Of a stretch of 64,000 nucleotides of DNA, positions 22,750 to 37,157 are shown one piece after another. How positions within the stretch are numbered: the first letter of the stretch is position 1; each line of letters starts with the position of its first letter. The notes under the pieces were generated by a model. That model saw nothing but the letters and a program-made list of their open reading frames with translations. It was not told the DNA's origin and searched no databases. Source of the stretch: Streptomyces sp. Tu6071 (GTDB taxonomy: Bacteria; Actinomycetota; Actinomycetes; Streptomycetales; Streptomycetaceae); contig NZ_CM001165.1 of assembly GCF_000213055.1 (NCBI RefSeq), forward strand, positions 4,796,945 through 4,860,944, given 5' to 3'. The position numbers were made by a program, and so were the translations under genes.

Positions 22750-23928
22750 TCAGCGCCCCGTACGCGCCTGAGCGACCCCCCGCGCCACCGCCCGCCGCAG
22801 CTTCGGCGTCAACGGCCGCTCCACGCAGCGGTGCAGGAGCCAGGCGAGGAGCAGCATCGCGGCGATCGTCGCGGGGAACGTGACGGCGGCCGGGACGCCG
22901 AGCGAGACGTGCAGGGCGTGCACGACGACCCAGCCCAGGTGTTCGTGGACGAGGTAGAAGGGGTACGTGAGCGCCCCCGCCACCGTCAGCCAGCGCCAAT
23001 TGGCGCGGTCGAGCCAGCCCACGGCGATCGCCGCGACGGCCGCGAAGCCGAGCGTCACGATCGCGATGATCACGACGGTCGAGCGGTACGAGAAGGCGTC
23101 GGGCCCGTCCGGGTGCCACAGGTCGCCGACCGCGTAGTGCTGGCCGAGGAGCAGCCCGAGCAGCGCGAAACCCCAGCCGAGGACGTCGCGGCGGTCGCGG
23201 TGCACGAGGTAGAGGCCGATGCCGCCGACGAAGAACGGCGCGTAGCGCGGCATGAGAACCTGGTCCAGGAGCGCCGAGTCCGCCGCGTCGCCGAGCGCGG
23301 CGGCGAGCGTCCACAGCGCGCAGAAGAGGACGACCCTGCGCCGCGTCACCCCGGGCAGGACGACACACACCGCGAACAGCGCGTAGAACCGGACCTCGGC
23401 CCACAGCGTCCAGCACACCCCGAGCACGCGCGGCGCGCCGAGCGGCATCTGGAGCAGCGTCAGGTTGAGGAGCGTGTCGCTCGGTGAGAGCGCGTGCCAC
23501 AGCACCCACGGCAGCGCGAACACACCGCTGACCAGCAGGATCGCGACCCAGTACGCGGGCATGAGGCGCGCCACGCGCGAGGCGAAGAAGTCCGTGAGGC
23601 CGCGCCCCCAGCCGCTCATGCAGATCACGAACCCGCTGATGACGAAGAAGATCTGCACCCCGAGCGGACCGTAGGCGAACCACTCGTGCAGGCGCGGGAA
23701 CTGGGCGGCGGGCGAGGCGCCCCAGGCCCGCGTGATGTCGCCGCCCCGGCCGCCGTAGTGGTAGCACGCGACCATGAGCGCGGCGAGCAGGCGCAGGCCG
23801 TCGAGGGCGCGCAGGCGGGGGCGCCGGGGAGGCGCGGGGTCGGTCGCCGCCGGGATGGGGGGCGCCGCCTCGGTGGGGAGCGCGCGGTGGAGCGGTGCCA
23901 CGCGGACGGGCTCGGCGGGTGCGGACAT
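22750..23928 (-). CDS. acyltransferase 3 (OafA-like) membrane O-acyltransferase
   Basis: 392-residue polytopic membrane protein of the acyltransferase_3 family. It has about ten hydrophobic helices, and near the N-terminus the hallmark RLRALDGLRLLAALMVACYHYGG with the conserved Arg and catalytic-type His. FFVISGFVICMSGWGRGL is the second family signature. These proteins O-acetylate surface polysaccharides, lipids or antibiotics. ATG 23928 follows an AAGAAGG ribosome site; further upstream ATG 24012 is weaker. Divergent from the GT29 gene, so it may acylate the polymer made by that cluster (inference). Confidence 0.87.
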   Translation of the reverse strand: MSAPAEPVRVAPLHRALPTEAAPPIPAATDPAPPRRPRLRALDGLRLLAALMVACYHYGGRGGDITRAWGASPAAQFPRLHEWFAYGPLGVQIFFVISGFVICMSGWGRGLTDFFASRVARLMPAYWVAILLVSGVFALPWVLWHALSPSDTLLNLTLLQMPLGAPRVLGVCWTLWAEVRFYALFAVCVVLPGVTRRRVVLFCALWTLAAALGDAADSALLDQVLMPRYAPFFVGGIGLYLVHRDRRDVLGWGFALLGLLLGQHYAVGDLWHPDGPDAFSYRSTVVIIAIVTLGFAAVAAIAVGWLDRANWRWLTVAGALTYPFYLVHEHLGWVVVHALHVSLGVPAAVTFPATIAAMLLLAWLLHRCVERPLTPKLRRAVARGVAQARTGR

Positions 23929-24270
23929 GCGCGCCTTCTTCGGGACGGGTGGACGACGAGGCCGCCGTTCCCGGTCGGGGAGGTACGGCGGCCCTGGCAG
24001 CGTAGGGAGCAAGACGGCGTCCCGTACGTCCCTGACGGGACCGTTCGCCAGGTCTTCGGCGAGAGTTCACCGGCAGCGCCCGTGCGCGGCGATCGCGGTG
24101 GGAAGGGGATTCGCCACCCCTTCGCCGTCCGTTCACCTTCACGTGGCGGCGCTTTACCCCGCGCGCCGAAGACTGCCGCACGCCCCCCGTCCGCGTCCAC
24201 GCGCCCCGGGGGCGGGACTTCGCGCCCGTGGCGCACCGCACATCCGCACCACCGAACCGCCAGGAGAGCC
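23929..24270. promoter_or_regulatory. divergent region, acyltransferase / GT29
   Basis: 342 bp without a gene. A minus-strand -10 candidate TACGCT lies at 23999-24004, about 70 nt before the acyltransferase. An inverted repeat GAAGGGG / CCCCTTC (24102-24108, 24117-24123; 8-nt loop) is in the middle. AGGAG just before 24271 is the ribosome site of the rightward gene. No -10 for that gene is convincing. Confidence 0.4.
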
Positions 24271-25830
24271 ATGCCGAGAAGCCGAGCCCTCAGTCCGCAG
24301 GAGGAGCGGGGCGCCGTCGAGGAGCCGCCGCCCGCGCTGGAGGAGTGCCTGCGGGCCTGTGCCACGCACAGCGGGAAGCTCGTCGCGGGCCTCGACCGGC
24401 GGCGCGGCGAACTCGCCGAGGCACTCCGGGCCTTGCTCGCCCTGCACGCCTCGCGCGCGCTTCCCGCCGGGGCGCCGCGCGCCGAACGCGGCCCGGTCTC
24501 CGCGCTGTTGCGCCGCGCCCAGGCCACCGCCTCGGCCGCGCCCGCCGCCACGCCCGGTCCGCTCACGCTCGACAACGCGCTCCTCGACGCGCTCCTCGCC
24601 GTCGGCGGCAAGGCGCTGGACTGCGGGTACGAGGACGAGCGGGCCCTCGCGGACGTCGTCTCGCGCTGCCTCGTCGCCCTGCGCAAGGGCTCCCGTGCCG
24701 CGTGGCGGCTGCGCGGGCGCGTGCTGGAGGCGCAGGGCGCGTACGCGGAGGCGGCCGACGCCTACGACGAGTACCTGTCCAGGACCGAGGAGGACGGCTT
24801 CGGGGTGCGGGCCCGCGTCGCGGGGCTGCGCGTCGCCGCGGAGCGCGAACGCGAACTCGCCGGGCTCCTCGCCGCCGCCCGCCCCGGGGCCGGGGCGTAC
24901 CGCGAGGAGCCCCTCACGGAGACCTGGTTCGACGGCCTGGAGCTGGTCGCGCGCGGTGAACTCGACGGCGCGCACGACCGGTTCGCCGGGGCGCTGCTCG
25001 GTCTCGCCGACCGGGGCGAGTGGCGTGAGTTCCAGGACGCCCTGGGCCGCACGCTCGACGTGAGCCTCCACGACCTCGACAGCCGGGTCACGACGCCGGG
25101 GCCGGACGCGCCGGTCGGCGGCGGCACGGACGGCGGCCCCCGTGCCGCGCTCAACGCGCTCCTCGCGCACTACGCCGACCTCGCCCGCTCGCGGCAGCGC
25201 GGCCCCGTCGAGGAGCCGACCTTCGGCGGCGCGAAGTGGCTCTCGCTCGGCGAGTTCCGCAACAGGATCGCGGGCAAGTCGGTCTGCCTCGTGGCCAACT
25301 CCGGTCGCGTGGGCACGGGTTCGCTCGGCGCGGAGATCGACGCGTACGACCTCGTGGTGCGCTTCAACTCGTACCGCATCGACCCGCGGGCGACCGGCGC
25401 GCGCACCGACATCCACGTCACGATCCACAAGCACGCCTTCAACTGGGACCAGCACGTCGACACCCGCCTCGTCTTCGGCGGCGACGTGGGCGCCTGGCGC
25501 TCCTCGCTGCGCAACCGGCTCGTCCCCGGGGCCCAAGTACACCTCGGAGACGACTCGTTGCGGTGGCCGCTGCGCGAGATCGGCAAGGTCGGCCCCGAGG
25601 AGTGGCCCGCGATCCCGACCACGGGCTTCAACACGCTCTTCCTCCTCGACTTCCTCGACGTGAACCCCGTCATCGACCTCATCGGCTTCGACTTCTACGA
25701 GTCGGGTGCCTACCGCACGAGCGAGGCCATGCGGATGCCGGTGACCTCGGTCCACGAGTACGCCGACGAGAAGACGTGGGTGCTCGACCGCGCGACGAAG
25801 GTGACCGAGCACCGGATCAGCCTGCGCTGA
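24271..25830 (+). CDS. GT29-type sialyltransferase-like glycosyltransferase
   Basis: 519 residues. About 330 N-terminal residues are helical and Ala/Arg/Glu-rich with a TPR-like part (AYAEAADAYDEYLSRTEEDG). The C-terminal 180 residues show the sialylmotifs of family GT29: motif L, SVCLVANSGRVGTGSLG then IDAYDLVVRFN (about 335-365); motif S, PTTGFNTLFLLDFLDVNPVIDLIGFDFY (about 447-475); and motif VS, HEYADE (HxxxxE, about 493-498). Eukaryotic members transfer sialic acid from CMP-sugars. Here it would use CMP-nonulosonate in cell-wall polymer assembly, given the synthase and cytidylyltransferase genes 8 kb downstream. No signal peptide is seen, so it is probably cytosolic. ATG 24271 follows AGGAG. 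Confidence 0.82.
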   Translation: MPRSRALSPQEERGAVEEPPPALEECLRACATHSGKLVAGLDRRRGELAEALRALLALHASRALPAGAPRAERGPVSALLRRAQATASAAPAATPGPLTLDNALLDALLAVGGKALDCGYEDERALADVVSRCLVALRKGSRAAWRLRGRVLEAQGAYAEAADAYDEYLSRTEEDGFGVRARVAGLRVAAERERELAGLLAAARPGAGAYREEPLTETWFDGLELVARGELDGAHDRFAGALLGLADRGEWREFQDALGRTLDVSLHDLDSRVTTPGPDAPVGGGTDGGPRAALNALLAHYADLARSRQRGPVEEPTFGGAKWLSLGEFRNRIAGKSVCLVANSGRVGTGSLGAEIDAYDLVVRFNSYRIDPRATGARTDIHVTIHKHAFNWDQHVDTRLVFGGDVGAWRSSLRNRLVPGAQVHLGDDSLRWPLREIGKVGPEEWPAIPTTGFNTLFLLDFLDVNPVIDLIGFDFYESGAYRTSEAMRMPVTSVHEYADEKTWVLDRATKVTEHRISLR

Positions 25831-25891
25831 GCCGCCGCCCGGCACCCGTGACCCCCGTACTCCGCCGCAGACCTGAGGACTTCACCCCGCC

Positions 25892-28267
25892 ATGTCCCGT
25901 ACCACCGCCTCCGCCGCCCCGCCCGCCGTCCACACCCCCGCAGCGCCCGTGCGCGAGGCCGCCGCGGACGACGTGCGCGACCTCACGGGCAAGCGCCGCG
26001 TCGCCTTCGCGAGCTTCGTCGACGAGAACTACCTCCCCGGCTTCCTCGCCCTGCTGCGCTCCCTCGCCCTGAGCAACCCGGAGGTCTGCGAGGACTTCCT
26101 CGTCCTCCACGACGGCCTGCGCCCCGCCTCCCTCGCGCGCATCCGCGCCCTCCACCCGCGCATCAGGCCGCGCCGCGTGGACGCCGCCCGCTACGACGCC
26201 TACGCCAAGGGCGACCAGAACAACTACCTCGTCCGCAAGGCGTACTTCCTCCTCGACGTCTTCCGCGTCCGCGACTACGACACGATCATCACGCTCGACA
26301 CGGACATGGTCGTCCTCGGCGACCTCTCCGAACTCCTGCGCCTGCGCGAAGGGCTCGCCGCCGTACCGCAGTTCTTCTACGGCACCCACAAGCTCAACAG
26401 CGGACTCCTCGTCATCCAGCGGGAATTCCTCTCGGACGCCTTCTGCGAGCGCATCGACGAGACGGGCCTCGCGGGCACCTACGAACTCGACAAGCACGAC
26501 CAGGGCATCCTCAACGCCGTGCTCGACGGGGACTTCGTGCGCCTGCCCGCGCGCTACAACTTCGTCAAGCGCCGCCTCTCGGGCGACAAGCCCGTCCCCG
26601 AGGACACCGCCGTGCTCCACTTCACCGGGCGCCACAAGCCCTGGCAGGGCGGCGAGAACGGCTACGCGGAGGCCGAGGCCCGCTGGCGCGACTTCCACCT
26701 GACCGAGCGGGAGTTCCAGGACGCGTACCTCGCCCTGCCCGGCGCGAAGCACCCCGATCTCCTCGTCCACCTCGGCACCCCGTACGTCCACCGCACGGGC
26801 GAGGTCGAGGCGGCCCGCAGGATCGCCACGGCGCACATCGGCGCGGGGCACTTCGAGGAAGCCGTCGAGATCCTGCGCGCCGTCCGCGTGCCCGTGCACG
26901 ACGCGTGGCCGCACGAGGTCCTGGGCCACGCCCTGCTCAGCGTCTCGCGCTACGCCGAGGCCACGAGCCACCTGCTCCTCGCGGCCACGTCGCCGCACCG
27001 CGCCCCGACCGCGTACAGCCGTCTCGCGCAGATCGCCTGGATACACCACCGCGACGAGGAGGCCCACGCCTACGCCGGGAAGGGCCTCTCCGTCGACCCC
27101 ACGCACCGCGCCGCGCGCATCTGGCACCAGCGCACCCGCCACGCGGCCCCCGGCGCCTCGCTGCCCCAGCAGCCGGAGGGCCCCGCGCACGAGCAACTCG
27201 CCCACGTCGCCTTCTACATGGAGGGCCAGGGCAACGCGGGCGACAAGGTGCTCCCCGAGTCGGTGCGCCTCGCCCTGGACGCCGACCCCTCCGCGCGCCG
27301 CTGGCACTCCCTGCACGCGCACCGCCTCTTCGACCGCGCCGCGCTCGCCGAGGTCAACCGGCGGCGCGGGCTCGTCATCGGCGGCGGCGGCCTCTTCATC
27401 CCGGACACGGCGCCGAACGGCAACAGCGGCTGGCAGTGGAACGTACCGCCTGAGCACCTGCGCGCGATCGACGTGCCCGTCATCGTGCACGCGGTCGGCT
27501 TCAACGCCTTCGACGGGCAGTCCTACCGCCACCGCCGCTTCCACGAGAGCCTGCGGCTCCTCGCCGAGCAGTCCTCCTTCTTCGGCCTGCGCAACCACGG
27601 TTCGGTCGAGAAGGTGCGGGCGCTGCTCCCGCCGCACCTGCGCGAGCGCGTGCGCTGGCAGCCCTGCCCGACGACGGTCACGCGGCACCTCGTGCCGGGC
27701 TGGACGGACCCCGTCGCGCGCGAGGACACGATCCTCCTCAACGCCGCCTACGACCGCGCCGGCCTGCGCTTCGGGCACGACTACCCGTACTTCCTCGACC
27801 AGATGGCCCGCGCCGTCCGCGGCCTCGGCGCCCTCGCCCAGGTGAAGATCGCCGCGCACGCGCTCGACGACGAACGCCTCGCTCACGACCTGCGCCGCAC
27901 GCACGGCATCTCGCTGCCGGTGCTGCCGATGTACGACTGGGACAACGACGAGATCCGCGCGGCCTACGCGAAGACCCGCCTCGTCATCGGGATGCGCGGC
28001 CACGCGGGCATGATCCCCTTCGGCTGCGGCACACCGATCCTGAGCCTCGTCTCGCACCCGAAGATGGCGTACTTCCTCGCCGACATCGACCGCCCCGAGT
28101 GGGGCATCAGCGTCCACGACCGCCACCTGGCCGACCACCTCACCGAGGCCGCCCGCACCCTCCTCGCCGACCACGCGGCGAGCGTGGCGGACGTGCACGA
28201 GCGCCAGCGGGCGCTGTGGGAGGTGACCCGGGCGAACGGGGCGGACATCCGGGCGGTGCTGGCCTGA
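25892..28267 (+). CDS. fusion: GT8 glycosyltransferase, TPR linker, polysaccharide pyruvyltransferase
   Basis: 791 residues in three parts. Residues 35-285 are a GT8 retaining glycosyltransferase: VAFASFVDENYLPGFLALLRSL, metal motif LDTDMVVLGDL (about 135) and the C-terminal HFTGRHKPW. Residues about 300-425 are TPR-like helical repeats. From about 440 a polysaccharide pyruvyl transferase domain follows (MEGQGNAGDKVLPESV, GLVIGGGGLFIP, VIGMRGHAGMIPFGCGTPILSLVSH). It would add a hexose (or glycogenin-like sugar) and a ketal pyruvate to the same polymer. It begins 61 nt after the GT29 gene on the same strand with GAGGAC upstream, so the two probably share a transcript. Cytosolic; no membrane segment. 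Confidence 0.88.
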   Translation: MSRTTASAAPPAVHTPAAPVREAAADDVRDLTGKRRVAFASFVDENYLPGFLALLRSLALSNPEVCEDFLVLHDGLRPASLARIRALHPRIRPRRVDAARYDAYAKGDQNNYLVRKAYFLLDVFRVRDYDTIITLDTDMVVLGDLSELLRLREGLAAVPQFFYGTHKLNSGLLVIQREFLSDAFCERIDETGLAGTYELDKHDQGILNAVLDGDFVRLPARYNFVKRRLSGDKPVPEDTAVLHFTGRHKPWQGGENGYAEAEARWRDFHLTEREFQDAYLALPGAKHPDLLVHLGTPYVHRTGEVEAARRIATAHIGAGHFEEAVEILRAVRVPVHDAWPHEVLGHALLSVSRYAEATSHLLLAATSPHRAPTAYSRLAQIAWIHHRDEEAHAYAGKGLSVDPTHRAARIWHQRTRHAAPGASLPQQPEGPAHEQLAHVAFYMEGQGNAGDKVLPESVRLALDADPSARRWHSLHAHRLFDRAALAEVNRRRGLVIGGGGLFIPDTAPNGNSGWQWNVPPEHLRAIDVPVIVHAVGFNAFDGQSYRHRRFHESLRLLAEQSSFFGLRNHGSVEKVRALLPPHLRERVRWQPCPTTVTRHLVPGWTDPVAREDTILLNAAYDRAGLRFGHDYPYFLDQMARAVRGLGALAQVKIAAHALDDERLAHDLRRTHGISLPVLPMYDWDNDEIRAAYAKTRLVIGMRGHAGMIPFGCGTPILSLVSHPKMAYFLADIDRPEWGISVHDRHLADHLTEAARTLLADHAASVADVHERQRALWEVTRANGADIRAVLA

Positions 28268-28654
28268 GGGGTACGGGGCGGCCCGCGCCGCGGGGTACGG
28301 GGCGGAGGGGCCGGGCCGGAGCGCTGGTGACGGGTGTGGGGCGGCGCCTCGGCGGCCCCCGACCGGAAGCTGTGCCTCCCGGCACCGCGTCGGTGGGGAG
28401 CGCGGGCCGGTGGGGGTGGTGCCGCGTCCGAGGGGCAGCGGCGCGAGGGCCCGAGCCGCGGGAGAAGGTCCGGCGGGCGGCGGGGGCGTGGGCTGACCGG
28501 GCGTGGGGGACGCCTGACGGGGCGGTGCGGTCCGGGCGACGGGCACGCTCGCGGCGGGGGTGCTCCGCGAGGGGGCATCTCGCGGGGGCCCGCGACAGGT
28601 CCTTCCCGCGACGGGCCCGCCCCGCCATCCGGGCCGCCCCGCCCCTCGTACCCC
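28268..28654. other. 387-bp convergent gap with inverted and direct repeats
   Basis: No credible gene. GGGGTACGGGGCGG is repeated at 28268-28281 and 28292-28305. The right edge carries CGGGCCGCCCCGCCCCTCGTACCCC, the approximate reverse complement of the left edge with a short insertion, so a long-range stem could form across the gap. It separates two converging transcripts and probably holds their terminators. Confidence 0.5.
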
Positions 28655-30001
28655 CTACCTCCTGCGCACCACCCGCGAGCGCAGGGCCCGGGTGCGGCGG
28701 GCCACCTTCCGGACCGTCGCGTTGCGCGGCAGGAAGCCGAGCTGCTGCGGCATTCCGCCGGGGAGGCCCAGCGCCGTGAGGCGCTTGCGCTTGATGTAGC
28801 GCCTCGCCGTCTCCTCGCCGCAGGCCGCGAGGTGCGCCTCGGCGCGGGCCCGCAGGCCGGGGTGGATCTTCGGCTGCATCGCGAAGCCGACCGCGACGAG
28901 GAGTTCCTGCGTCGCGGGGTCCGCCGCGAGATCCTGGGCCGCGACCGCCTCGGGGTCCGACAGCTCGGGGAGGAGCGCGTCGACGAGCGTCACGGGGACG
29001 CGGTTGCTGTTCTCGAACGGTGTCAGGCGCTCCAGGAGCCGGCCCGTCCCGGTCCGCGCGACCGGGAGCCCGTAGAACGTCGCCGCCGTGAGCAGCGCCG
29101 TCGAGAAGCAGCCCACGACGAGCGCGGGCCGGAGCACCGGGTACAGCGTCTCGGCGAGCAACGGCACGTCCAGCACGAGGAGTTCGGCGCCGAGTCGTTC
29201 CGCCTCCGCCTCCATGAGCCGGGCCCAGCGGGCGGGCGCCGTCGGGTGCGGCTTGAAGACGAGGTGCCGGTGGCCGAGCGCGACCGCGCCGCGCACCATG
29301 TCCGCGTGCAGCGTCTCCTCCTCCTCGGCGGTGAGGATGCCGAGCGCCGACAGGTACTGGCCGAGGAGCAACGCGGGCCGGGACGAAGGGAGTTCCGGCA
29401 GGCCGGGCATCTCCTCCGCCACCTCGGCGAGCACCCGTACGAACGCCTCCGCGTCCACGACCTCGCGCCGCACCCCGAACTCGCTAAGCAGCAACGGCTC
29501 CAGGCCCGGCACGAGGTCCAGGTGCAGCAGGCGCTCGACGCGGGTGCCGAGGAGCGGGTCGAGCTTGTTCCGCGTCGGCCCGTAACTCATGAGCCCGTCC
29601 GCGTACACGTCCACGCGCGCGCCCGTGAAGATCGTGGTGACGGCGAGCGCGGGCACGACCTGGATCGACTCGACGACGAACTCGACCTCCTCGTCCGCCC
29701 CGAGTCCCCACAGGAGCCGCAAGTACCGTTCCCACAGCGGCACATCGTCCGGCGCGGGTTCCCACGCGCCGGGGTGGAAGGGCGCGATGGCCTCGTTCCA
29801 GTGCCGTACCTCGTCGAAGCGCGTGCGCAGGCGCGCGAAGCCCGCGAGCGCGTCGGGGCCCGGCGTCGTCTCGGGGTTCGCCGCGTTGTTGCTGAGCAGC
29901 AGGATCGTACGGTCCACGGGCGCGAACTGCCCCGCGTCGATCGCGGCGGCGAGCGTCGCCGTCCCGTACAGCGTCGAGGCGAGGAGGATGCGGGCGCTCA
30001 C
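28655..30001 (-). CDS. polysialyltransferase-type glycosyltransferase
   Basis: 448 residues resembling the alpha-2,8-polysialyltransferase family (GT-B fold). N-terminus ILLASTLYGTATLAAAIDAG, an acidic/Gly segment VDVYADGLMSYGP (about 134) and KPHPTAPARW (about 250), matching the D/E-D/E-G and HP motifs of bacterial sialyltransferases. FSTALLTAATFYGLPVAR follows. The basic C-terminus (RYIKRKRLTALG, RRTRALRSRVVRRR) suggests membrane association. It would extend a polymer of nonulosonic acid from a CMP-sugar. GTG 30001 overlaps the stop of the upstream GT2 gene (GTGA), so the two are coupled. Confidence 0.8.
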   Translation of the reverse strand: MSARILLASTLYGTATLAAAIDAGQFAPVDRTILLLSNNAANPETTPGPDALAGFARLRTRFDEVRHWNEAIAPFHPGAWEPAPDDVPLWERYLRLLWGLGADEEVEFVVESIQVVPALAVTTIFTGARVDVYADGLMSYGPTRNKLDPLLGTRVERLLHLDLVPGLEPLLLSEFGVRREVVDAEAFVRVLAEVAEEMPGLPELPSSRPALLLGQYLSALGILTAEEEETLHADMVRGAVALGHRHLVFKPHPTAPARWARLMEAEAERLGAELLVLDVPLLAETLYPVLRPALVVGCFSTALLTAATFYGLPVARTGTGRLLERLTPFENSNRVPVTLVDALLPELSDPEAVAAQDLAADPATQELLVAVGFAMQPKIHPGLRARAEAHLAACGEETARRYIKRKRLTALGLPGGMPQQLGFLPRNATVRKVARRTRALRSRVVRRR

Positions 30002-30975
30002 GCGGCCACCCCCGCGGCCGGACGGCGCCGCAAGCGGCGGATCAGGCCCGCGCGTTCGACGTCCATCGAGGCGAGCGCGGCGGTGAGCACGTCCTGCGGG
30101 AGCCGCCGCAGCGCGGCAGCGCTCCGCGTCCGCAACTCCCGTGCCACGGAGGGCTGGAAATACTCGACGCGGCCGAGGTGGTGGGCGATGATCGCGCAGT
30201 ACGTGCGGACGGCCTTCGGCAGCAGCGCGGCGGCCTCCGGATCGGCGGCGGTCTCCGCCACGACCTGGTCGAAGGCGGGCAGGAAGTCGAGCTGGCGCAC
30301 GTCGCCGATCTGCGTCAGCGAACTCCCCACGCCGCGCCGGTAGAAGTAGCCGAGCGTGTTCACGGCCGCGCAGCTCTCCGCCTCCCGGTGCAGCCGCCAG
30401 ATCCACGGCCGGTCCTCGGCGGTGTGCAGCCCCTCGGGGAAGTCGAGCAGGCCCTGTTCGAGGAGCCGCCGGTGGTACAACCCGGCCCAGGAGTAGGGGT
30501 AGTCGACGGATGTGGACCGCTCGGCCGGCAGGATCAGCGCGCGCGGATCGAGGACGACCCCGCGCCGCCCGATGGGCGCCCGGTAGAGCGAACGCGCCCG
30601 TGCGGTGCACCGCACGTGGTCGACGCGCAGGAAGTCGACGCCGAGCCGCTCGGCATCGGCGACGAGCCGCGCGAGATACCCCGGAGCGAGCCAGTCGTCC
30701 CCGTCGAGGAACGTCAGCCACTCCCCGCGCGCGGCGGCGAGCCCGCTGTTCCTGGCCGTCCCGATACTGCTGTTCACCTCGTGCCGCACGACTCTCGCGG
30801 GCGCCCCGAGCCCTCCGAGAGCCTCCGCCACCACCTCCCCGGTCCCATCGTCGGAACAGTCGTCCACGAAGACGAACTCGTAGTCCGGCCGGGCATTGGC
30901 GCGCAGCGAACGCAGCGCCTCGGACACATAGGGCCGCACATTGTGGAACGGCACGATGACGGAGAGCTTGAGCAC
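29998..30975 (-). CDS. GT2 family glycosyltransferase
   Basis: 325-residue inverting glycosyltransferase of the GT-A fold: LSVIVPFHNVRPYVSEALRSL at the N-terminus, FVFVDDCSDDGTGEV, the metal-binding FLDGDDWLAPGYL (DxD-type) near 95, and an acceptor loop HTAEDRPWIWRLH. It transfers a sugar from a nucleotide donor, here probably within the wall-polymer locus. GTG 30975 has no ribosome site; TAGCGT lies exactly 7 nt upstream, so the message appears leaderless. Its stop overlaps the GTG of the polysialyltransferase gene. Divergent from the DUF6716 gene. Confidence 0.9.
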   Translation of the reverse strand: MLKLSVIVPFHNVRPYVSEALRSLRANARPDYEFVFVDDCSDDGTGEVVAEALGGLGAPARVVRHEVNSSIGTARNSGLAAARGEWLTFLDGDDWLAPGYLARLVADAERLGVDFLRVDHVRCTARARSLYRAPIGRRGVVLDPRALILPAERSTSVDYPYSWAGLYHRRLLEQGLLDFPEGLHTAEDRPWIWRLHREAESCAAVNTLGYFYRRGVGSSLTQIGDVRQLDFLPAFDQVVAETAADPEAAALLPKAVRTYCAIIAHHLGRVEYFQPSVARELRTRSAAALRRLPQDVLTAALASMDVERAGLIRRLRRRPAAGVAA

Positions 30976-31273
30976 GGCCGCGACGCTAGGACGCGCGCCG
31001 AGCGGGCGCCTGAAGGGCGGGCGTACGGGAGGTGAAATCGAGGGGGCGGCGCGGGGGAGGTCCGCGTGAACCAGGGCCGAGCCCGGCCCGCGGGGCCCGT
31101 CCCGCAAGGGTCCCGGGGCCCGTCCCGGTGCCCCGGCAGGCCCCCGGGGGCCGCCCCGTCGGCCCGTCCGGGGTGAGCCGGGCGCGCCCCTCCCCCCACT
31201 CGATCCACGCTGTTCACCCCCCGTTGCAGTCAAGTTCGGTGTCCCCTCGGAATCGGTTCCTAGCGTCCGGGGT
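30976..31273. promoter_or_regulatory. divergent leaderless promoters of the polymer cluster
   Basis: 298 bp. Each end carries the same -10 word: TAGCGT 7 nt before GTG 31274 on the plus strand (31261-31266) and TAGCGT 7 nt before GTG 30975 on the minus strand (30983-30988). Neither start has a ribosome site. The interior is GC-rich with a CCCGGGGCC-type palindromic block near 31110-31130; no operator is obvious. Confidence 0.6.
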
Positions 31274-32572
31274 GTGTCGATAAGCAAGCCGAAGCCCCCG
31301 CGCGTCGCGGTGCTCGCCGACTCGGACACGCGGTGGAAGTGGGGCGCCCTCACGGCCGCCCGCGTCACCGGGTGCGAGGAGCCGGACGGGTTCCTGCTGC
31401 GCGGACGCGCCACCCCCACCGCGCGGCAGCTCCGCGAGGTCGGGGTGCGGGCCGCCTCGCTCCGTGAAGTGACCGCGAACGGGTTCGTACGGGCCATGGG
31501 CGAGACGGAGTACGACGTCGTCGTGCTCGCGCTCGTCGGGGGCGGCGTGCAGGCCCTCGTGCACGGGCTGCGGTACGCCTGGCAGGAAGCCGTCAAGCGG
31601 CCCGTGCTCGTGACCGGGTACGTCGGGGTCGTCTACGAGAAGCTCGCGGACGGGCTCCTCCTGCGCCACGGCGCCGACGTCGTGCTCGCCAACTCGCGCG
31701 ACGACGCCGAACGCTTCCGCGCCGTGTACGAGGGCGTGGGCGCCGACAGCGCGAGCGTCGTCGAGTGCGCGCTCCCCTTCCTCCAGGGCGAACCCGCCAC
31801 GGGGGACGGCGAGGGCCCCGTCGTCTTCGCCGTGCAGCCCTCCGTGCCCGAGCGCCGCGCCGACCGGCTCTACCTGCTGCGCCGCGCGGCCCAGCACGCC
31901 CGGCTCCACCCCGGGCGCGAGGTCCTCGTCAAGCTCCGTTCCCGCCCCGGCGAGCACACGACGCACATCGAGGAACAGCCGTACCAGAAGCTCGCCCGCT
32001 CGCTCGACCTGCCGCCCAACTGCCGCCTCGAATACGGCCATATGGGCGCCATTCTCGACACCGCGAGCCTCCTTGTCACGGTCAGCTCCACGGCCGCGCT
32101 GGAAGCCCTGCACCGCGGAGTGCCCACCGCGGTCCTCACGGACCTCGGCATCCGCGAAGCCCTCGGCAACCACGCCTTCCTCGGCTCGGGGTGCCTCACC
32201 TCCTGGGACGCGCTCGACGCCGGGCACCTCCCGAAGGCCGACCCCGCGTGGGCCGCGCGGCAGGGCGTCGCGAGCGACCGCCCGTACGAGAGCGCCTTCG
32301 ACGCGGCGCGCGCCCGCATCGCCGCCCTGCTCGCCCGGCCCCAACTGCCGCCGCTCTCCCCGTACTACACACTCGCGACCGCCCCCGGCTACCTGCCCGG
32401 CATCCTCGCCCGCCACCACCTCGCCCCGGACGGCTCACCGCTGCCGGGCGCGCCGAGCGAGGCCCGCCCGCCGGGGCCGCTCAAGCAGGTCGTGCGCCAG
32501 GCCGCCCGCGGCGCCTACCGGCACGGCGTCCAGCGCGTCGCGCCCGTCATCCGCCGCATGGGGGACCTGTGA
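31274..32572 (+). CDS. DUF6716 putative glycosyltransferase
   Basis: 432 residues. The pattern is that of a GT-B-fold glycosyltransferase: PPRVAVLADSDTRWKWGAL at the N-terminus, GYVGVVYEKLADGLLLRHGADVVLANSRDDAERF in the middle, then a donor half with VVFAVQPSVPERRADRLYLL, VLVKLRSRPGEHTTH and LLVTVSSTAALEALHRGVPTAVL. It matches what I recall as family DUF6716, found next to cytidylyltransferase and NeuB-type genes in streptomycetes. Donor and acceptor are unknown. GTG 31274 is leaderless by its TAGCGT box. Its stop overlaps the next GTG (GTGA), so it leads a four-gene operon with the nonulosonate genes. Confidence 0.8.
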   Translation: MSISKPKPPRVAVLADSDTRWKWGALTAARVTGCEEPDGFLLRGRATPTARQLREVGVRAASLREVTANGFVRAMGETEYDVVVLALVGGGVQALVHGLRYAWQEAVKRPVLVTGYVGVVYEKLADGLLLRHGADVVLANSRDDAERFRAVYEGVGADSASVVECALPFLQGEPATGDGEGPVVFAVQPSVPERRADRLYLLRRAAQHARLHPGREVLVKLRSRPGEHTTHIEEQPYQKLARSLDLPPNCRLEYGHMGAILDTASLLVTVSSTAALEALHRGVPTAVLTDLGIREALGNHAFLGSGCLTSWDALDAGHLPKADPAWAARQGVASDRPYESAFDAARARIAALLARPQLPPLSPYYTLATAPGYLPGILARHHLAPDGSPLPGAPSEARPPGPLKQVVRQAARGAYRHGVQRVAPVIRRMGDL

Positions 32573-33918
32573 CCGCCGCGCACGACAGCACCGCCACCGA
32601 AGCCCCCTCAGCCACCGAAGGCCCCGCAATGACCCCTCGTGTCCTCGCCGTCATCCCCGCCAGGGGAGGCTCCAAGGGCGTGCCCGCGAAGAACCTCGCG
32701 CCCGTCGGCGGCGTCCCGCTCGTCGTCCGCGCCGTGCGCGAGTGCCTGGCCGCGCGGTACGTGAGCGACGTCCACGTCTCGACCGACGACCCCGCGATCT
32801 CCCGCGCGGCCCGCGAGGCCGGGGCCGAAGTCGTCCGCAGGCCCGCCGAGTTGTCCGGCGACCTCGCGAGCAGCGAGGCCGCGGTCCTGCACGCGCTCGA
32901 CACGTACGAGCAGCGGCACGGCACCGCGCCCGACGTCGTCCTCCTCGTGCAGTGCACGAGCCCCTTCCTCCTCGCCTCCGACGTCGACGGCGTCGCGAAG
33001 GCCGTCGTGGACGGCGACGCGGACTCCGCGCTCACCGCCGCGCCCTTCCACGGCTTCGTGTGGCGCCGCGGCGAGGACACCGACGAGGGCGCGCACGGCG
33101 TCAACCACGACCGCCGCACCCGCCCCCGCCGCCAGGACCGCCCCGAGGACCTCGTCGAGACCGGCGCGGCCTACGCGATGGACGTCGCCGGGTTCCGTGC
33201 CCACAAGCACCGCTTCTTCGGCCGTACCGAGCTCGTACGGACCGACCCCGCACGGGTGCTGGAGATCGACGACCTCCACGAGCTGGAGCGCGCCCGCCTC
33301 CTCGCCCCGCACTTCGACGCGCACCGCCCCGGCGCGCTGCCGAGCCGCGCGGACGTCGACGCCGTCGTGCTCGACTTCGACGGCACGCAGACCGACGACC
33401 GCGTCCACATCGACGCCGAGGGCCGCGAACTCGTCTCCGTGCACCGCGGCGACGGCCTCGGCATCGCCGCGCTGCGCCGCTCCGGGCTCGCCCTGCTCAT
33501 CCTCTCCACCGAGCAGAACCCCGTCGTCGCCGCGCGCGCCCGCAAACTCCACGTCCCCGTCCTGCACGGCGTCGACCGCAAGGACCTGGCGCTCAAGCAG
33601 TGGTGCGAGGAGCAGGGCATCGCGCCCGAACGCGTCCTCTACGCGGGCAACGACGCCAACGACCTGGCCTGCTTCGGCCTCGTCGGCTGGCCCGTCGCCG
33701 TCGCGAACGCCCACGACGCCGTGAAGGGCGCCGCGCGCGCCGTCACGACCGTGCCCGGCGGCTCCGGGGCGATCCGCGAGGTGGCCGGCTGGCTCCTCGG
33801 CGGCGACCTCGGCACGCGCAGCGCCCCCGGCGACCCGGCGGCGCGGGACGCCCTTACGGACCAACCCACCCCGGAAACAACCGAGTCCACCCGAACCCCC
33901 CACACCCACCAGCACTGA
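32569..33918 (+). CDS. fusion: CMP-nonulosonate cytidylyltransferase + HAD phosphatase
   Basis: 449 residues. After a short Thr/Ala-rich leader, residues about 22-255 are a NeuA-type cytidylyltransferase (VLAVIPARGGSKGVPAKNLAPVGG, QCTSPFLLASDVD), which activates a nonulosonic acid with CTP. Residues about 265-430 are a KdsC-like HAD phosphatase: nucleophile motif VVLDFDGTQTDD, LLILSTEQNP, Lys in GVDRKDLALKQW and YAGNDANDLACF. The second domain could dephosphorylate a nonulosonate-9-phosphate before activation, so one protein would catalyse two successive steps. GTG 32569 overlaps the previous stop with GGGGGAC upstream; ATG 32629 would skip the leader. Cytosolic. Confidence 0.88.
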   Translation: MTAAHDSTATEAPSATEGPAMTPRVLAVIPARGGSKGVPAKNLAPVGGVPLVVRAVRECLAARYVSDVHVSTDDPAISRAAREAGAEVVRRPAELSGDLASSEAAVLHALDTYEQRHGTAPDVVLLVQCTSPFLLASDVDGVAKAVVDGDADSALTAAPFHGFVWRRGEDTDEGAHGVNHDRRTRPRRQDRPEDLVETGAAYAMDVAGFRAHKHRFFGRTELVRTDPARVLEIDDLHELERARLLAPHFDAHRPGALPSRADVDAVVLDFDGTQTDDRVHIDAEGRELVSVHRGDGLGIAALRRSGLALLILSTEQNPVVAARARKLHVPVLHGVDRKDLALKQWCEEQGIAPERVLYAGNDANDLACFGLVGWPVAVANAHDAVKGAARAVTTVPGGSGAIREVAGWLLGGDLGTRSAPGDPAARDALTDQPTPETTESTRTPHTHQH

Positions 33919-33932
33919 CCCAAGGACCCGCA

Positions 33933-34904
33933 ATGAGCAACGTCACCACCACCCCCCGCCTCCGCGCCTTCGGCTCCCGCGAGGTCGGCCCCGGGCGGCC
34001 CGTCTACGTCACCGGCGAGATCGGGATCAACCACAACGGCGAGCTGGACAACGCCCTCGCGCTCATCGACATCGCCGCCGACGCCGGGTGCGACGCCGTC
34101 AAGTTCCAGAAGCGCACGCCCGAGATCTGCACCCCGCGCGATCAGTGGGACATCGAGCGCGACACGCCGTGGGGCCGCATGACGTACATCGACTACCGCC
34201 ACCGCGTCGAGTTCGGCGAGGACGAGTACCGCGCGATCGACGCGCACTGCCGCGAGCGCGGCATCGACTGGTTCGCCTCGCCGTGGGACACCGAGGCCGT
34301 CGCCTTCCTGGAGAAGTTCGACGTGCCCGCGCACAAGGTCGCCTCGGCCTCGCTCACCGACGACGAACTCCTGCGCGCGCTGCGCGCCACGGGCCGCTCC
34401 GTCATCCTCTCGACGGGCATGTCCACGCCGCGCCAGATCCGGCACGCGGTCGAGGTGCTCGGCAGCGACAACATCGTGCTGTGCCACGCCACGTCGACCT
34501 ACCCGGCGAAGGCCGAGGAGCTGAACCTGCGGGTCATCCACACCCTCCAGGCCGAGTTCCCGAACGTCCCGATCGGCTACTCGGGCCACGAGACCGGGCT
34601 CCAGACGACGCTCGCCGCCGTCGCGCTCGGCGCGACCTTCGTCGAGCGGCACATCACTCTCGACCGCGCCATGTGGGGCTCCGATCAGGCCGCCTCCGTG
34701 GAGCCGCAGGGCCTCGCGCGCCTCGTCCGCGACATCCGCACGATCGAGCACTCGCTCGGCGACGGGGTCAAGAAGGTGTACGAGTCGGAGCTGGGCCCGA
34801 TGAAGAAGCTGCGCCGGGTGCCCGGCGTCGTCGCGGAGGCCGAGGAGGCCGTCCTGGCGGCGGACGAGGCGGCGGACGAGGCCGTGGCCTCGGCCCGCGT
34901 CTGA
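33933..34904 (+). CDS. neuB: NeuB-family nonulosonate synthase lacking the SAF domain
   Basis: 323 residues forming the NeuB TIM barrel: YVTGEIGINHNGELDNALALID (28-50), DAVKFQKRTPEI, WFASPWDTEAVAFLEKFDVPAHKVAS, ILSTGMSTPRQIRHAV, CHATSTYPA, GYSGHETGLQTTLAAVALGATFVERHITLDR and the catalytic-site D-Q-A in SDQAAS. It condenses phosphoenolpyruvate with a six-carbon sugar or its phosphate. The protein ends in an acidic Ala/Glu tail where family members continue into the SAF (antifreeze-like) domain of about 60 residues. Without ManNAc-forming genes nearby, mannose-6-phosphate (giving Kdn-9-phosphate) is the simplest substrate. ATG 33933 follows AAGGA, 14 nt after the fusion gene. Confidence 0.9.
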   Translation: MSNVTTTPRLRAFGSREVGPGRPVYVTGEIGINHNGELDNALALIDIAADAGCDAVKFQKRTPEICTPRDQWDIERDTPWGRMTYIDYRHRVEFGEDEYRAIDAHCRERGIDWFASPWDTEAVAFLEKFDVPAHKVASASLTDDELLRALRATGRSVILSTGMSTPRQIRHAVEVLGSDNIVLCHATSTYPAKAEELNLRVIHTLQAEFPNVPIGYSGHETGLQTTLAAVALGATFVERHITLDRAMWGSDQAASVEPQGLARLVRDIRTIEHSLGDGVKKVYESELGPMKKLRRVPGVVAEAEEAVLAADEAADEAVASARV

Positions 34905-34917
34905 GCGCGGTCAGCGC

Positions 34918-36123
34918 ATGACGATCCCGGGGGCGGCGGGCCCGGACGCGGAGGGGCCCGCCCCCGCCGCCACCCCGGCGGGAACCTCCGCCACCCCGGC
35001 GGGAATCTCCGCCACCCCGGCGGGAACCTCCGCCCCGACGGCGGGCACCTCCGCCGCCCCGGCGGACCCGCCGTCCCCCGCCCCCGCCACGCTCGCCTTC
35101 GTGGAGAGCCCCGTCCAGCTCCTCAACGTCCTCGAATGGGCCCACGCCACCCCCGGCGCCGACCCCGCCGACGTGCTGCTCGTCGTGCTCTCGCCCACCG
35201 ACCCCATGTCGCGCGGCCAGTTGCGGCGCATGGCCGAGTTCGCACGCGAGGCGGGGATGCGGCTGCGGTGGGAGGAGGCGCGGGGCGGGAGCGCGGCGCC
35301 CGTGCACACGGTGCGGGGGCTCGCGCCACTGCTGCGGGGCGCGCGCCGGATCGTCATCGGCGACCCGTTCTCGCGGTACGTGCAGCTCCTGCTGACGCTC
35401 GCCCGCGCGCGGGAGCTGGTCGTGGTGGACGATGGGACCGCCACGATGGAGTTCATCGCGCTGCTCGCGCGCGGCGAACCCCTCGTGCGCTGGCACCGGG
35501 GCGGGCGCGGCGGCCCCCGCGACCTCGCCTTCGCGCCCTTCGCGCGCACGGCGCGGCGCAAGCTCACCCCGGGCCAGGGGCGCCGGGTCGCCCTGTTCAC
35601 GTGCATGCCGGTCGAGGGCGTCCCGGAGGGCGTCACCGTCACGACGCACGACTTCGCCTGGACCCGTACCGCCTTCGGGCCGCCCGCCGTGCGCGCGGGC
35701 GCCGACCTCGTCGGCACCTCGCTCGTCGAGACCGGGGTCGTCGCCGAGGACCACTACGTGGCGGCGGTCGACGCGCTCGTGCGGCACCACGGCGCGGTCC
35801 GCTACTTCGCCCACCGCAGGGAGAACACCACGAAGCTCCACCGCCTCGCCGTCGAGACGGGCCTCCAGATCGTCCGCCCCGACCTCCCGCTCGAACTCAT
35901 CGCGCGACGGGGCCCGATCGGCGCCACGATCCTGAGCTTCCCCTCGACCGTCGTCCACACGCTCCCGCTCGCGCTGACGGGCACGGGCGTCCGCGTCGCG
36001 GTCTGCGACATCGACCCCGCCTGGCTCACCCCCCACGCCTCCCCCCGCGCCCCCGGCTTCCTCGCCGGGGTGACGGGGACGGCACGAGGGGTGCGGCGGA
36101 TAGGCGTGGGCGGCGGGGTCTGA
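34918..36123 (+). CDS. GT52/polysialyltransferase-like enzyme with repeat-rich N-terminus
   Basis: 401 residues. The first 58 residues are disordered, built from a TPAGTSA heptapeptide repeat. The catalytic part begins with TLAFVESPVQLLNVLEWAH (about 58-76), very like the start of lipooligosaccharide sialyltransferases (GT52). ELVVVDDGTATMEFI near 170 gives the D/E-D/E-G motif, and RYFAHRREN near 300 corresponds to the HP region, although the Pro is missing. ILSFPSTVVHTLPLALTG completes the family pattern. It would use the CMP-nonulosonate made by the two preceding gene products. ATG 34918 lies 13 nt after the synthase stop in the same operon. Confidence 0.75.
   Translation: MTIPGAAGPDAEGPAPAATPAGTSATPAGISATPAGTSAPTAGTSAAPADPPSPAPATLAFVESPVQLLNVLEWAHATPGADPADVLLVVLSPTDPMSRGQLRRMAEFAREAGMRLRWEEARGGSAAPVHTVRGLAPLLRGARRIVIGDPFSRYVQLLLTLARARELVVVDDGTATMEFIALLARGEPLVRWHRGGRGGPRDLAFAPFARTARRKLTPGQGRRVALFTCMPVEGVPEGVTVTTHDFAWTRTAFGPPAVRAGADLVGTSLVETGVVAEDHYVAAVDALVRHHGAVRYFAHRRENTTKLHRLAVETGLQIVRPDLPLELIARRGPIGATILSFPSTVVHTLPLALTGTGVRVAVCDIDPAWLTPHASPRAPGFLAGVTGTARGVRRIGVGGGV
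34972..35055 (+). repeat. 21-bp tandem repeat, four copies, coding
   Basis: Units of 21 bp (ACCCCGGCGGGAACCTCCGCC type) at 34972, 34993, 35014 and 35035. The first three are almost identical and the fourth is diverged. They encode the seven-residue repeat at the N-terminus of the GT52-like protein. Confidence 0.9.
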
Positions 36124-36221: not shown

Positions 36222-37157
36222 ATGCCCCCCGCCGCCACGCCCACAGCCCCCACACCCCCCGACGGCCGCGCCGGGATCGACGCCGCGCTCGTGCGGCGCC
36301 TGCTCGCCGCGCAGTTCCCGCAATGGGCCGGCCTCCCGCTCGCGCCCGTACCGGCCGAGGGCTGGGACAACCGCACCTACCGCCTCGGCGACGCGCTCAC
36401 CGTCCGGCTGCCCACCGGGCCCGGCTACGTGCCCGCCGTCGCCAAGGAGAACACCTGGCTGCCCCGCCTCGCCCCCCACCTGCCGCTGCCCGTGCCGCAG
36501 GTGCTCGGGGAGGGCCGGCCCGGCGAGGGATACCCGTACCCGTGGTCGGTACGGCGCTGGCTCGACGGCGAGACGCTGCTCGGCGCCGAGCCCCGCTCCC
36601 GTACCACCCTGGCCCGCGAACTCGCCGCCTTCGCGCGGGCGTTGTGGGAAGCCCCGGTCGACGGCCCCGCGGCGGGGGAGCACAGCTGGTACCGGGGCGC
36701 CTCGCCCGCGCACTACGACGGGGAGACCCGCTCCTGCCTCGCCGCGCTCGACGGCGTCGTGGACACCCGCGCGGCGACCGAGGTCTGGGAGGCCGCGCTC
36801 GCCGCGCCCTTCACAGGGCGCCCCGGCTGGTTCCACGGCGACCTCGCCCCCGGAAACCTCCTGCTGCGCGAGGGCGGACTCGCCGCCGTCATCGACTTCG
36901 GCACCTCGGGCGTCGGCGACCCGGCCTGCGACCTCGTCCCCGCCTGGGGCATGTTCGAGGGCGCGGCGCGCGAAGCCTTCCGCGAGGCGGTCGCCCAGGA
37001 CACGGGCACGTGGGCGCGGGCGCGCGGCTGGGCCCTGTGGAAGGCGCTCCTCGTGCTGGCGGAGACGCTGCGCGGCGAGCGCGAGGACTCCGGCGCCGTA
37101 CCGGAGTGCCGGCGGATCGTCGCAGCGGTGCTCGACGAACACGCGCAGTGTCGGTGA
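36222..37157 (+). CDS. aminoglycoside phosphotransferase (APH)-family kinase
   Basis: 311-residue protein-kinase-like small-molecule kinase. Seen: a nucleotide-binding N-lobe with EGWDNRTYRLGDALTVRLPT, a hinge (WSVRRWLDGETL), the catalytic loop WFHGDLAPGNLLLREG (Asp and Asn) near 205, and the metal-binding VIDFGTSGVGDPACDL. Family members phosphorylate aminoglycosides, homoserine, choline or sugars; antibiotic resistance should not be assumed. ATG 36222 has no ribosome site, but GACGAT lies 6 nt upstream, consistent with a leaderless message. It is separated from the polymer operon by 98 bp and probably independent. Confidence 0.85.
   Translation: MPPAATPTAPTPPDGRAGIDAALVRRLLAAQFPQWAGLPLAPVPAEGWDNRTYRLGDALTVRLPTGPGYVPAVAKENTWLPRLAPHLPLPVPQVLGEGRPGEGYPYPWSVRRWLDGETLLGAEPRSRTTLARELAAFARALWEAPVDGPAAGEHSWYRGASPAHYDGETRSCLAALDGVVDTRAATEVWEAALAAPFTGRPGWFHGDLAPGNLLLREGGLAAVIDFGTSGVGDPACDLVPAWGMFEGAAREAFREAVAQDTGTWARARGWALWKALLVLAETLRGEREDSGAVPECRRIVAAVLDEHAQCR

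Follow-up and report, generated by a model that had tools for sequence, protein, structure and literature searches.

The window, a stretch of 64,000 nucleotides of Streptomyces sp. Tu6071, contains at positions 22750-36123 a group of genes for a nonulosonic acid, which raises the question of which sugar is made, what polymer it enters and which of the genes set this locus apart. Domain and profile scans recovered within these limits every gene class named in the initial annotation, and the gene models are backed by GC-frame phase. The three transcription units proposed there do not hold, however, as the genes form at least four strand blocks: acyltransferase (- strand), GT29 plus GT8-pyruvyltransferase (+), GT2-polysialyltransferase (-) and DUF6716-NeuA/HAD-NeuB-GT52-like (+). 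The gene content indicates that this is probably the Streptomyces teichulosonic-acid locus and that the polymer is probably built from Kdn, a relative of sialic acid. We consider it quite likely that the product of the locus is a cell-wall teichulosonic acid that contains Kdn, with a conserved core that makes and polymerises CMP-Kdn and variable genes that decorate the polymer.

NeuB was present in 139 of 150 Streptomyces genomes. The genes for the polysialyltransferase-like protein (polyST), GT2, DUF6716 and the cytidylyltransferase (NeuA) occurred together in 59 of 60 fetched Streptomyces loci, 54 of which also held the HAD domain, and the GT52-like gene was found in 60 of 60 (as was NeuB, by selection). 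The core consists of the GT2 and polyST genes, divergent from those for DUF6716, the CMP-synthetase/phosphatase, NeuB and a transferase with a DDG motif (the "GT52-like" protein), and the window conforms to this neighbourhood, polyST-GT2 / DUF6716-NeuA-NeuB-GT52-like. The genus-wide comparison of loci, suggested in the initial annotation as a check, gave a near-universal core with a variable flank. The enzyme set, at first called unusual, is in its core the standard of the genus, the GT29/GT8-pyruvyltransferase pair being one of the variable parts. The locus as a whole is the usual Streptomyces gene set, and its distinctive part is an optional two-gene insert with a sialyltransferase. A role as sugar kinase in the pathway was weighed for the APH-type gene at 36291-37157 and discarded; it had a match in 2 of 60 loci, both at other positions of the locus.

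The NeuB-family synthase (33933-34904, + strand), a putative Kdn-9-P synthase, matched PF03102 with 275.7 bits (cut-off 22.1) and is the single NeuB of its genome. No match to NeuC/WecB (Epimerase_2, PF02350) or NanE (PF04131) was found in that genome, which supports the proposed route from mannose-6-phosphate (Man-6-P), and the best PseB-family score was 60.7 bits, short of the curated cut-off of 407.75; the search with these families for a ManNAc or Pse supply that would refute Kdn thus returned nothing above cut-off. The synthase has no SAF domain, which was present in 0 of 29 Kdn-type NeuBs (that of the window and those of 28 loci outside Streptomyces) but in all 20 distant NeuBs that were fetched. 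In the Neu5Ac synthase of Neisseria a SAF arginine contacts ManNAc, and this arginine therefore has no counterpart in the Kdn-type NeuBs. The human synthase NANS carries a SAF domain. As NANS accepts Man-6-P too, according to PMC6200933, loss of the SAF domain is not required for Kdn.

The gene preceding NeuB (32569-33918, + strand) encodes, as judged from profile matches and conserved residues, a CMP-nonulosonate cytidylyltransferase (about aa 24-250) fused to a HAD phosphatase of predicted Kdn-9-P type (about aa 255-417). Glu56 and Lys67 of BT1713, which we take to be the functional pair of a Kdn-9-P phosphatase, were conserved in 11 of the 11 HAD rows picked, whereas two Kdo-8-P-type enzymes have Arg and Asp/Ser at these positions. 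The HAD domain scored 69.8 bits with the Kdn-9-P phosphatase equivalog NF058599 (NCBIfam), missing the cut-off of 180. NeuA, HAD and NeuB form a single fused protein in 10 of the 28 loci outside Streptomyces; in five Streptomyces genomes the HAD domain has been lost and none of them has a close copy elsewhere, which indicates that a dedicated phosphatase is dispensable.

The same genes might instead make a polymer of another nonulosonic acid, such as Neu5Ac, legionaminic or pseudaminic acid, and the best NCBIfam models, NeuB_NnaB for the synthase (251 bits) and PseF for the cytidylyltransferase (102 bits), both below cut-off, point in that direction. The missing NeuC/WecB, NanE and above-cut-off PseB, the NeuB without SAF domain, the phosphatase residues of Kdn-9-P type and the published Streptomyces polymer, which contains Kdn, all argue against this, and we regard it as very unlikely. 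The sole NeuB, the lack of NeuC/WecB and NanE matches and the retained phosphatase residues uphold the original reading, and Kdn is well supported as the predicted product. The logic is that reported for Bacteroides thetaiotaomicron BT1713-BT1715 and Prymnesium parvum, in which Man-6-P is converted to Kdn-9-P, Kdn and CMP-Kdn (PMC6200933), and the window-type phosphatase keeps the Glu56/Lys67 pair of BT1713. It differs from them in the fusion of the phosphatase to the cytidylyltransferase, extended to the synthase in the 10 of 28 other actinobacterial loci mentioned above, and the absence of SAF is a feature seen on the side of the window-type NeuB.

The parallel drawn earlier with sco4873-4882 of S. 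coelicolor is borne out in print, SCO4873-SCO4882 being given as the teichulosonic acid locus of that species (Ostash 2014, as cited in PMC13011467). The wall polymer of S. coelicolor is a Gal-Kdn polymer bearing GlcNAc or methyl, and a Kdn polymer is reported to be the principal glycopolymer in Streptomyces walls. Our reading of the window has in common with SCO4873-4882 the Kdn polymer and control by PhoP, the latter published for S. coelicolor (PMC13011467). The products given for SCO4877-4882 in PMC8269224 (hypothetical, GT2, hypothetical, sialic acid synthase, hypothetical) fit the order polyST, GT2, DUF6716, NeuA/NeuB and GT52-like, a likeness in product order. Where the S. coelicolor polymer has GlcNAc/methyl, the window has instead GT29 and GT8-pyruvyltransferase genes, and no methyltransferase match was obtained among the window genes scanned.

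Neither an LCP ligase nor an exporter was noticed among the genes of the locus, as would be expected if the product were not bound to peptidoglycan but were a polysaccharide of the secreted or capsular kind, or else a glycosylated small molecule. We consider this highly improbable because the locus is near-universal in Streptomyces, the S. coelicolor counterpart is assigned to a wall polymer in print (PMC13011467), the genome itself contains 10 LCP matches, and a PHO box in the locus suits a switch to a phosphate-free wall polymer.

This putative PhoP operator, a new feature, is a three-unit PHO box located between the core operons (31212-31244, + strand) and recognised by its conservation across species; its 11-nt units are GTTCACCCCCC, GTTGCAGTCAA and GTTCGGTGTCC. 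The pattern GTT[AC]ACC-N4-GTT was present in 46 of 56 intergenic stretches, a count that is partly circular because the pattern was picked after earlier results had been viewed, as compared with four sites in the remaining 1.1 Mb when both strands were counted. A PHO-box scan of the whole window gave a weak signal (20 matches versus 11.7 expected, with 2 of 100 shuffles reaching 20), and the case for the box comes from its conservation between species. The hexamer TAGCGT at 31261-31266 (+ strand) is probably the -10 element for a DUF6716 transcript without leader; on the opposite strand a second copy precedes the GT2 start by 7 nt.

The polyST (28655-30001, - strand), a putative Kdn polymerase, matched PF07388 with 89 bits (Pfam gathering cut-off 23.3) and carries (A/S)DG, PHP and FST motifs; in its family most rows keep (A/S)DG and 23 of 23 keep PHP. 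The start of its gene is overlapped by 4 bp by the gene for the GT2 glycosyltransferase (29998-30975, - strand), putatively the hexose transferase of the repeat, and the two were duplicated jointly in 13 of 61 loci. The divergent operon begins with the putative glycosyltransferase DUF6716 (31274-32572, + strand; PF20471). We found DUF6716 in 49 of 50 genomes with a close NeuB versus 4 of 196 others, one of the four under cut-off; this near-perfect tracking of NeuB is new. Seven of 37 family members, that of the window not among them, matched the KpsC/KpsS-like PF05159 at E <= 0.1 (best 9.2e-4).

The last core gene (34918-36123, + strand) encodes a transferase-like protein with DDG, HRRE and PS(S/T) motifs, a candidate CMP-Kdn transferase. 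The window protein had no match in Pfam or NCBIfam, and PF07922 (GT52) matched 1 of 29 family members (E = 0.14), not that of the window. The label "GT52-like" thus finds no backing in profiles and rests on motifs: DDG was conserved in 29 of 29 members, as was the His, present as HR where the GT-B sialyltransferase motif has HP. Bacterial polysialyltransferases and GT52 enzymes are GT-B proteins with D/E-D/E-G and HP motifs (PMC5517516); the polyST family shares with them (A/S)DG, in most rows, and PHP, and the DDG-motif enzyme keeps DDG and an invariant His but has HRRE in place of HP and belongs to no Pfam family. The locus type also differs from those systems in having two or three such enzymes per locus. 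Searches of solved structures with the DUF6716 and GT52-like families yielded no strong match, and probabilities were negligible when the three transferase families were compared profile to profile, with the S/T-motif stretch aligned in two of three. A look through the open-licence literature turned up no publication on DUF6716 or on a Streptomyces GT29; Streptomyces proteins automatically named "glycosyltransferase family 29 protein" do exist.

The optional insert starts with the GT29-like gene (24271-25830, + strand), whose product has a TPR-like region at its N-terminus and a sialyltransferase domain at its C-terminus. Its partner (25892-28267, + strand) was recognised by domain matches; both domains of the "GT8/pyruvyltransferase" annotated before are present, but in a single 791-aa protein with a TPR stretch in between. 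Sialylmotifs L (about aa 335-385), S (about aa 449-475) and VS (HxxxxE, His495) were found in the GT29-like protein, and in 77, 80 and 80 of its best 80 named relatives, respectively. These motifs sustain the name GT29-like; the PF00777 score of 20.8 bits, under the Pfam gathering cut-off of 23, does not. PF00777 matches 15 of 19 family members at E <= 0.01. Across 296 genomes of the phylum PF00777 gave three matches (the window, G130 and G406), all inside Kdn-type loci, in a scan that is insensitive, the window's own protein scoring under cut-off. In G406, from another actinobacterial family, a GT29 gene (44.5 bits) whose product has a C-terminal GT4 domain lies directly upstream of the NeuA-HAD gene. 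Known GT29 sialyltransferases share motifs L, S and VS with the window protein (PMC5811610), which differs from them in its TPR fusion and its occurrence in Streptomyces; the main text of PMC5811610 places bacterial GT29 in proteobacteria and mentions neither Streptomyces nor actinobacteria. In 80 of the best 80 named loci GT29 is immediately followed by the GT8-TPR-pyruvyltransferase gene, and the two co-occur in 40 of 42 genomes with GT29. They are a pair within the variable flank, which is a new observation.

These two proteins might not use CMP-Kdn, and modify another glycan while merely sharing the locus, for example if GT29 took a different CMP-sugar or had no transferase role. The sub-threshold Pfam score fits this, as do the weak sialyltransferase matches in a profile search of solved structures (E about 0.03), the diverged GT29 copies without the HxxxxE histidine (L199, L200, L198, L202, L053 and L060), two genomes with the pair and no NeuB (G110 and G132, both contigs ending about 70 bp past the pair) and two with GT29 and no GT8-pyruvyltransferase (G036 and G117). 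In addition, 19 of 76 named loci have their nearest polyST more than 3 kb off or on the opposite strand, and in L237 the 7.7 kb that follow contain no polyST. However, the motifs are kept in nearly all of the best 80 relatives, polyST is within the fetched stretch of 76 of the 80 named GT29 loci and convergent within 3 kb in 57, NeuB is present in 40 of 42 GT29 genomes, and the over-cut-off GT29 of G406 ends just before the NeuA-HAD gene. We therefore consider this alternative unlikely, and favor a role of the pair in decorating the Kdn polymer.

The acyltransferase (22750-23928, - strand; PF01757), for which ATG at 23928 is a better start than 24012, may add an O-acyl decoration to the polymer and was found in 40 of 61 Streptomyces loci, including the window. 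The flank of other loci contains a methyltransferase, a GT4 or a second GT2-polyST pair. A view of the variable part as a single slot was rejected; additional GT2-polyST pairs, like the majority of the methyltransferase genes, sit beyond the acyltransferase, and "variable flank" is therefore the apt term. The utr teichuronic-acid loci of S. griseus, which provide umbrella-toxin receptors, likewise combine a core with species-variable decoration genes (PMC13274773); their sugars are others, ManNAc3NAcA/GalNAc, and it is for these loci that a link to umbrella toxins has been reported.

Based on families and residues, NeuB would condense Man-6-P and PEP to Kdn-9-P, the HAD domain would dephosphorylate it and the fused cytidylyltransferase would form CMP-Kdn. 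Hexose and Kdn would be laid down by the GT2/PF07388 polymerase-like pair, while DUF6716 and the DDG-motif enzyme may be further CMP-Kdn-dependent or linkage transferases for initiation, and phosphate scarcity would turn on the divergent core operons through PhoP. In the optional decoration cassette, GT8 would add a hexose, the pyruvyltransferase a ketal on that hexose or on Kdn, and GT29 a Kdn cap or branch; the acyltransferase would add an O-acyl group, and export and attachment would proceed via unlinked genes. Which transferase forms which bond, and the pyruvate decoration, we infer. More tentatively still, all of the following may hold together: a PhoP-controlled Kdn core accompanied by a fast-changing flank, an actinobacterial GT29 branch that transfers Kdn alongside the GT8-TPR-pyruvyltransferase, DUF6716 and the DDG/HRRE proteins as two new families of CMP-Kdn transferases, and a flank whose turnover is caused by recognition of the surface by phages or umbrella-toxin lectins, in line with a proposal made for teichuronic acids.

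If true, a fixed core with a variable flank would link genes to polymer structure throughout the genus in a map that can be tested. The locus offers three uncharacterised candidate CMP-Kdn transferases, as well as a bacterial representative of a family of sialyltransferases known chiefly from animals. Should decoration determine what binds the hyphae, the flank would be the place to seek the specificity of phage or toxin receptors.

The initial annotation had read the locus as a nonulosonic-acid gene set in three transcription units. Gene models built from ORFs, GC-frame phase and start sites, together with family matches, confirmed the gene set, but the genes form four strand blocks instead. 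These comprise an acyltransferase gene (22750-23928, minus strand); genes for a GT29-like protein (24271-25830) and a GT8-TPR-pyruvyltransferase (25892-28267), both on the plus strand; those for a polysialyltransferase-like PF07388 protein (polyST; 28655-30001) and a GT2 (29998-30975), both on the minus strand; and, again on the plus strand, those for DUF6716 (31274-32572), a cytidylyltransferase-HAD fusion (32569-33918), NeuB (33933-34904) and a 'GT52-like' protein (34918-36123). The window lies at 4.80-4.86 Mb in a 7.5-Mb genome of 2 contigs. An APH-family phosphotransferase gene 3' of the locus (36291-37157, plus strand) was rejected as a core gene; matches occur in 2 of 60 Streptomyces loci, at other places within them.

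NeuB orthologues were present in 139 of 150 Streptomyces genomes, and 60 loci were hand-picked from NeuB-bearing genomes for low contig number (61 with the window). In 59 of the 60 Streptomyces loci the search recovered genes for all of polyST, GT2, DUF6716 and the cytidylyltransferase; none of the four was recovered in L038. In this locus, which falls inside a phosphatase-less clade, NeuB and the GT52-like gene are the sole core genes found. GT2 and polyST probably act together, since 13 of the 61 loci carry a second copy of the pair. An IS110-type transposase gene separates polyST from GT2 in one locus (L057:8383-9579). Ten LCP (LytR-CpsA-Psr) matches in the window's own genome, five of them within 2.940-2.950 Mb, are candidate polymer-attachment proteins.

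Three 11-nt units are located between GT2 and DUF6716 (31212-31244), and each of their start codons has a TAGCGT hexamer 7 nt 5' of it. The pattern GTT[AC]ACC-N4-GTT was present in 46 of 56 GT2-DUF6716 intergenic stretches (5 of the 61 loci were left out for want of a called gene); in the other 1.1 Mb of these loci, searched on both strands, it was seen 4 times. PMC13011467 places SCO4873-4882, the S. coelicolor counterpart, under PhoP control.

The genome encodes a single NeuB according to a genome search. A ManNAc or Pse pathway feeding this enzyme would have spoken against Kdn as the product; searches of the same genome gave no match to Epimerase_2 (NeuC/WecB) or NanE, and for PseB only weak SDR matches, none close to the cut-off. 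The SAF domain, C-terminal in Neisseria-type NeuB, was absent from all 29 close NeuB relatives (the window and 28 non-Streptomyces loci) and present in all 20 of a hand-picked set of distant NeuBs. Trp118 is invariant among the close relatives; 17 of the 20 distant NeuBs have Phe there. Because an arginine of the Neisseria SAF domain touches ManNAc and helps to position its N-acetyl group (PMC6795526), a SAF-less NeuB is consistent with an unacetylated substrate, SAF loss being no proof of it. Some Streptomyces carry elsewhere a second NeuB with SAF, 37-39% identical (L208, L209, L210, L211, L223), which possibly makes another nonulosonic acid.

DUF6716 tracked the close NeuB (≥52% identity) in 246 class-level genomes, being found in 49 of 50 genomes with it (exception G556) and in 4 of 196 without it, one of the four below cut-off. 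The E. coli control genome of this search gave a DUF6716 match above cut-off. DUF6716 bears a faint likeness to the capsule-synthesis family PF05159 (E ≤ 0.1 for 7 of 37 members, best 9.2e-4), which includes the KpsC/KpsS Kdo transferases. For the GT52-like protein, 2146 of 7996 candidates scored were relatives, and no Pfam domain was found in the 120 listed among them. DDG and an invariant His were conserved in 29 of 29 members. Bacterial sialyltransferases use D/E-D/E-G and HP as base and donor motifs (PMC5517516); in the GT52-like family HRRE stands in the place of HP.

The HAD domain, with 3mmz as a close solved relative, was compared with the Bacteroides thetaiotaomicron Kdn-9-P phosphatase BT1713, in which Glu56 and Lys67 presumably set Kdn-9-P specificity. 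Glu and Lys are kept at these positions in 11 of 11 hand-picked HAD rows, and Arg and Asp/Ser occupy them in two chains of Kdo-8-P type. This pair is precisely what distinguishes PDB chains 4hgq and 4hgr from 3e81. Cytidylyltransferase, phosphatase and synthase form a single protein in 10 of 28 non-Streptomyces loci from 27 genomes (L163, L164, L166, L167, L168, L175, L176, L178, L190, L207). The HAD domain is absent from 5 of the 60 Streptomyces loci (L046, L054, L064, L067, L088), four of which have a cytidylyltransferase-NeuB fusion. A search of these five genomes for a HAD copy outside the locus gave just three short matches, none above 26.4 bits; the two controls scored 351 and 281 bits. 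The alga P. parvum has no recognised phosphatase, yet its synthase accepts Man-6-P only (PMC6200933); the simplest explanation for the HAD-less clade would therefore be that a general phosphatase performs the step.

The GT29-like and GT8-pyruvyl genes occur in 42 and 41 of the 150 genomes, respectively, and together in 40; GT29 stands without its partner in G036 and G117, and the GT8-pyruvyl match of G140 is marginal. A named collection yielded 255 stretches fitting the search patterns; 177 of these encode relatives, and the best 80 of the 177, all from Streptomyces, were used. In all 80 the GT8-pyruvyl gene immediately follows GT29 on the same strand, with a median gap by profile envelope of -1 base (range -25 to 160; 61 bases in the window). 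polyST was present in 76 of the 80 fetched stretches, convergent within 3 kb in 57 and farther away or on the opposite strand in 19. Of the four others, three stop at the pair or shortly past it; L237 runs 7.7 kb further without polyST. Sialylmotifs L, S and VS were found in 77, 80 and 80 of these 80 relatives. Diverged copies (L199, L200, L198, L202, L053, L060) miss the VS histidine; in L199, L200, L053 and L060 a GT8-pyruvyltransferase gene still adjoins. Two observations were counted against our reading: the window GT29 protein scores below the Pfam cut-off, and G110 and G132 have the cassette and no NeuB match, both contigs ending ~70 bp past it (L206 and L205, respectively, with the pair at contig ends).

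A PF00777 search of 296 phylum genomes gave three matches: the window, G130, where match and NeuB are 10 kb apart on one contig, and G406, from another actinobacterial family. The G406 match (44.5 bits, above cut-off) lies in a second Kdn-type locus of this genome; its GT29 domain belongs to an 818-aa frame that also encodes a C-terminal GT4 domain, directly 5' of NeuA-HAD (L172:3932-7548). On the same strand, the NeuA-HAD domain starts at ~6400, just past the end of the frame at 6385; a Kdn-type NeuB lies ~2 kb past the frame on the opposite strand. Therefore, a GT29 that has neither a TPR match nor a pyruvyl partner likewise adjoins CMP-Kdn genes. Judged from gene order, this locus would provide an independent link between GT29 and Kdn.

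Comparison of locus content across Streptomyces, as the initial annotation had proposed, revealed a conserved core and a variable flank left of polyST, where the acyltransferase adjoins polyST in many loci. Of 61 loci, 10 have a methyltransferase in the flank, 4 a large GT4, 10 the GT29 pair and 13 a second GT2-polyST pair. The window's GT29 pair sits between acyltransferase and polyST; second GT2-polyST pairs, like most methyltransferases, are found on the far side of the acyltransferase. When the labels were mapped on a quick tree (61 rows, three core proteins), GT29 required a minimum of 6 changes, and the duplicate pair and methyltransferase 7 each. The flank labels are partly inherited, because together they required 27 changes versus a shuffled mean of 39.1. 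The sisters L090 and L091 differ in their flanks: L090 has the GT4, and L091 has the GT29 pair, with four further genes in between. The methyltransferase plus GT4 flank type would fit the methyl and GlcNAc of the S. coelicolor polymer. Promicromonospora is known to have Kdn that is 7,9-pyruvylated (PMC6801904).

The locus as such was already known. The novelty lies in how it is built: the core is PHO-boxed, the variable flank can hold a GT29/GT8-pyruvyl pair, NeuB is SAF-less, DUF6716 tracks the Kdn-type NeuB, and one clade is phosphatase-less.
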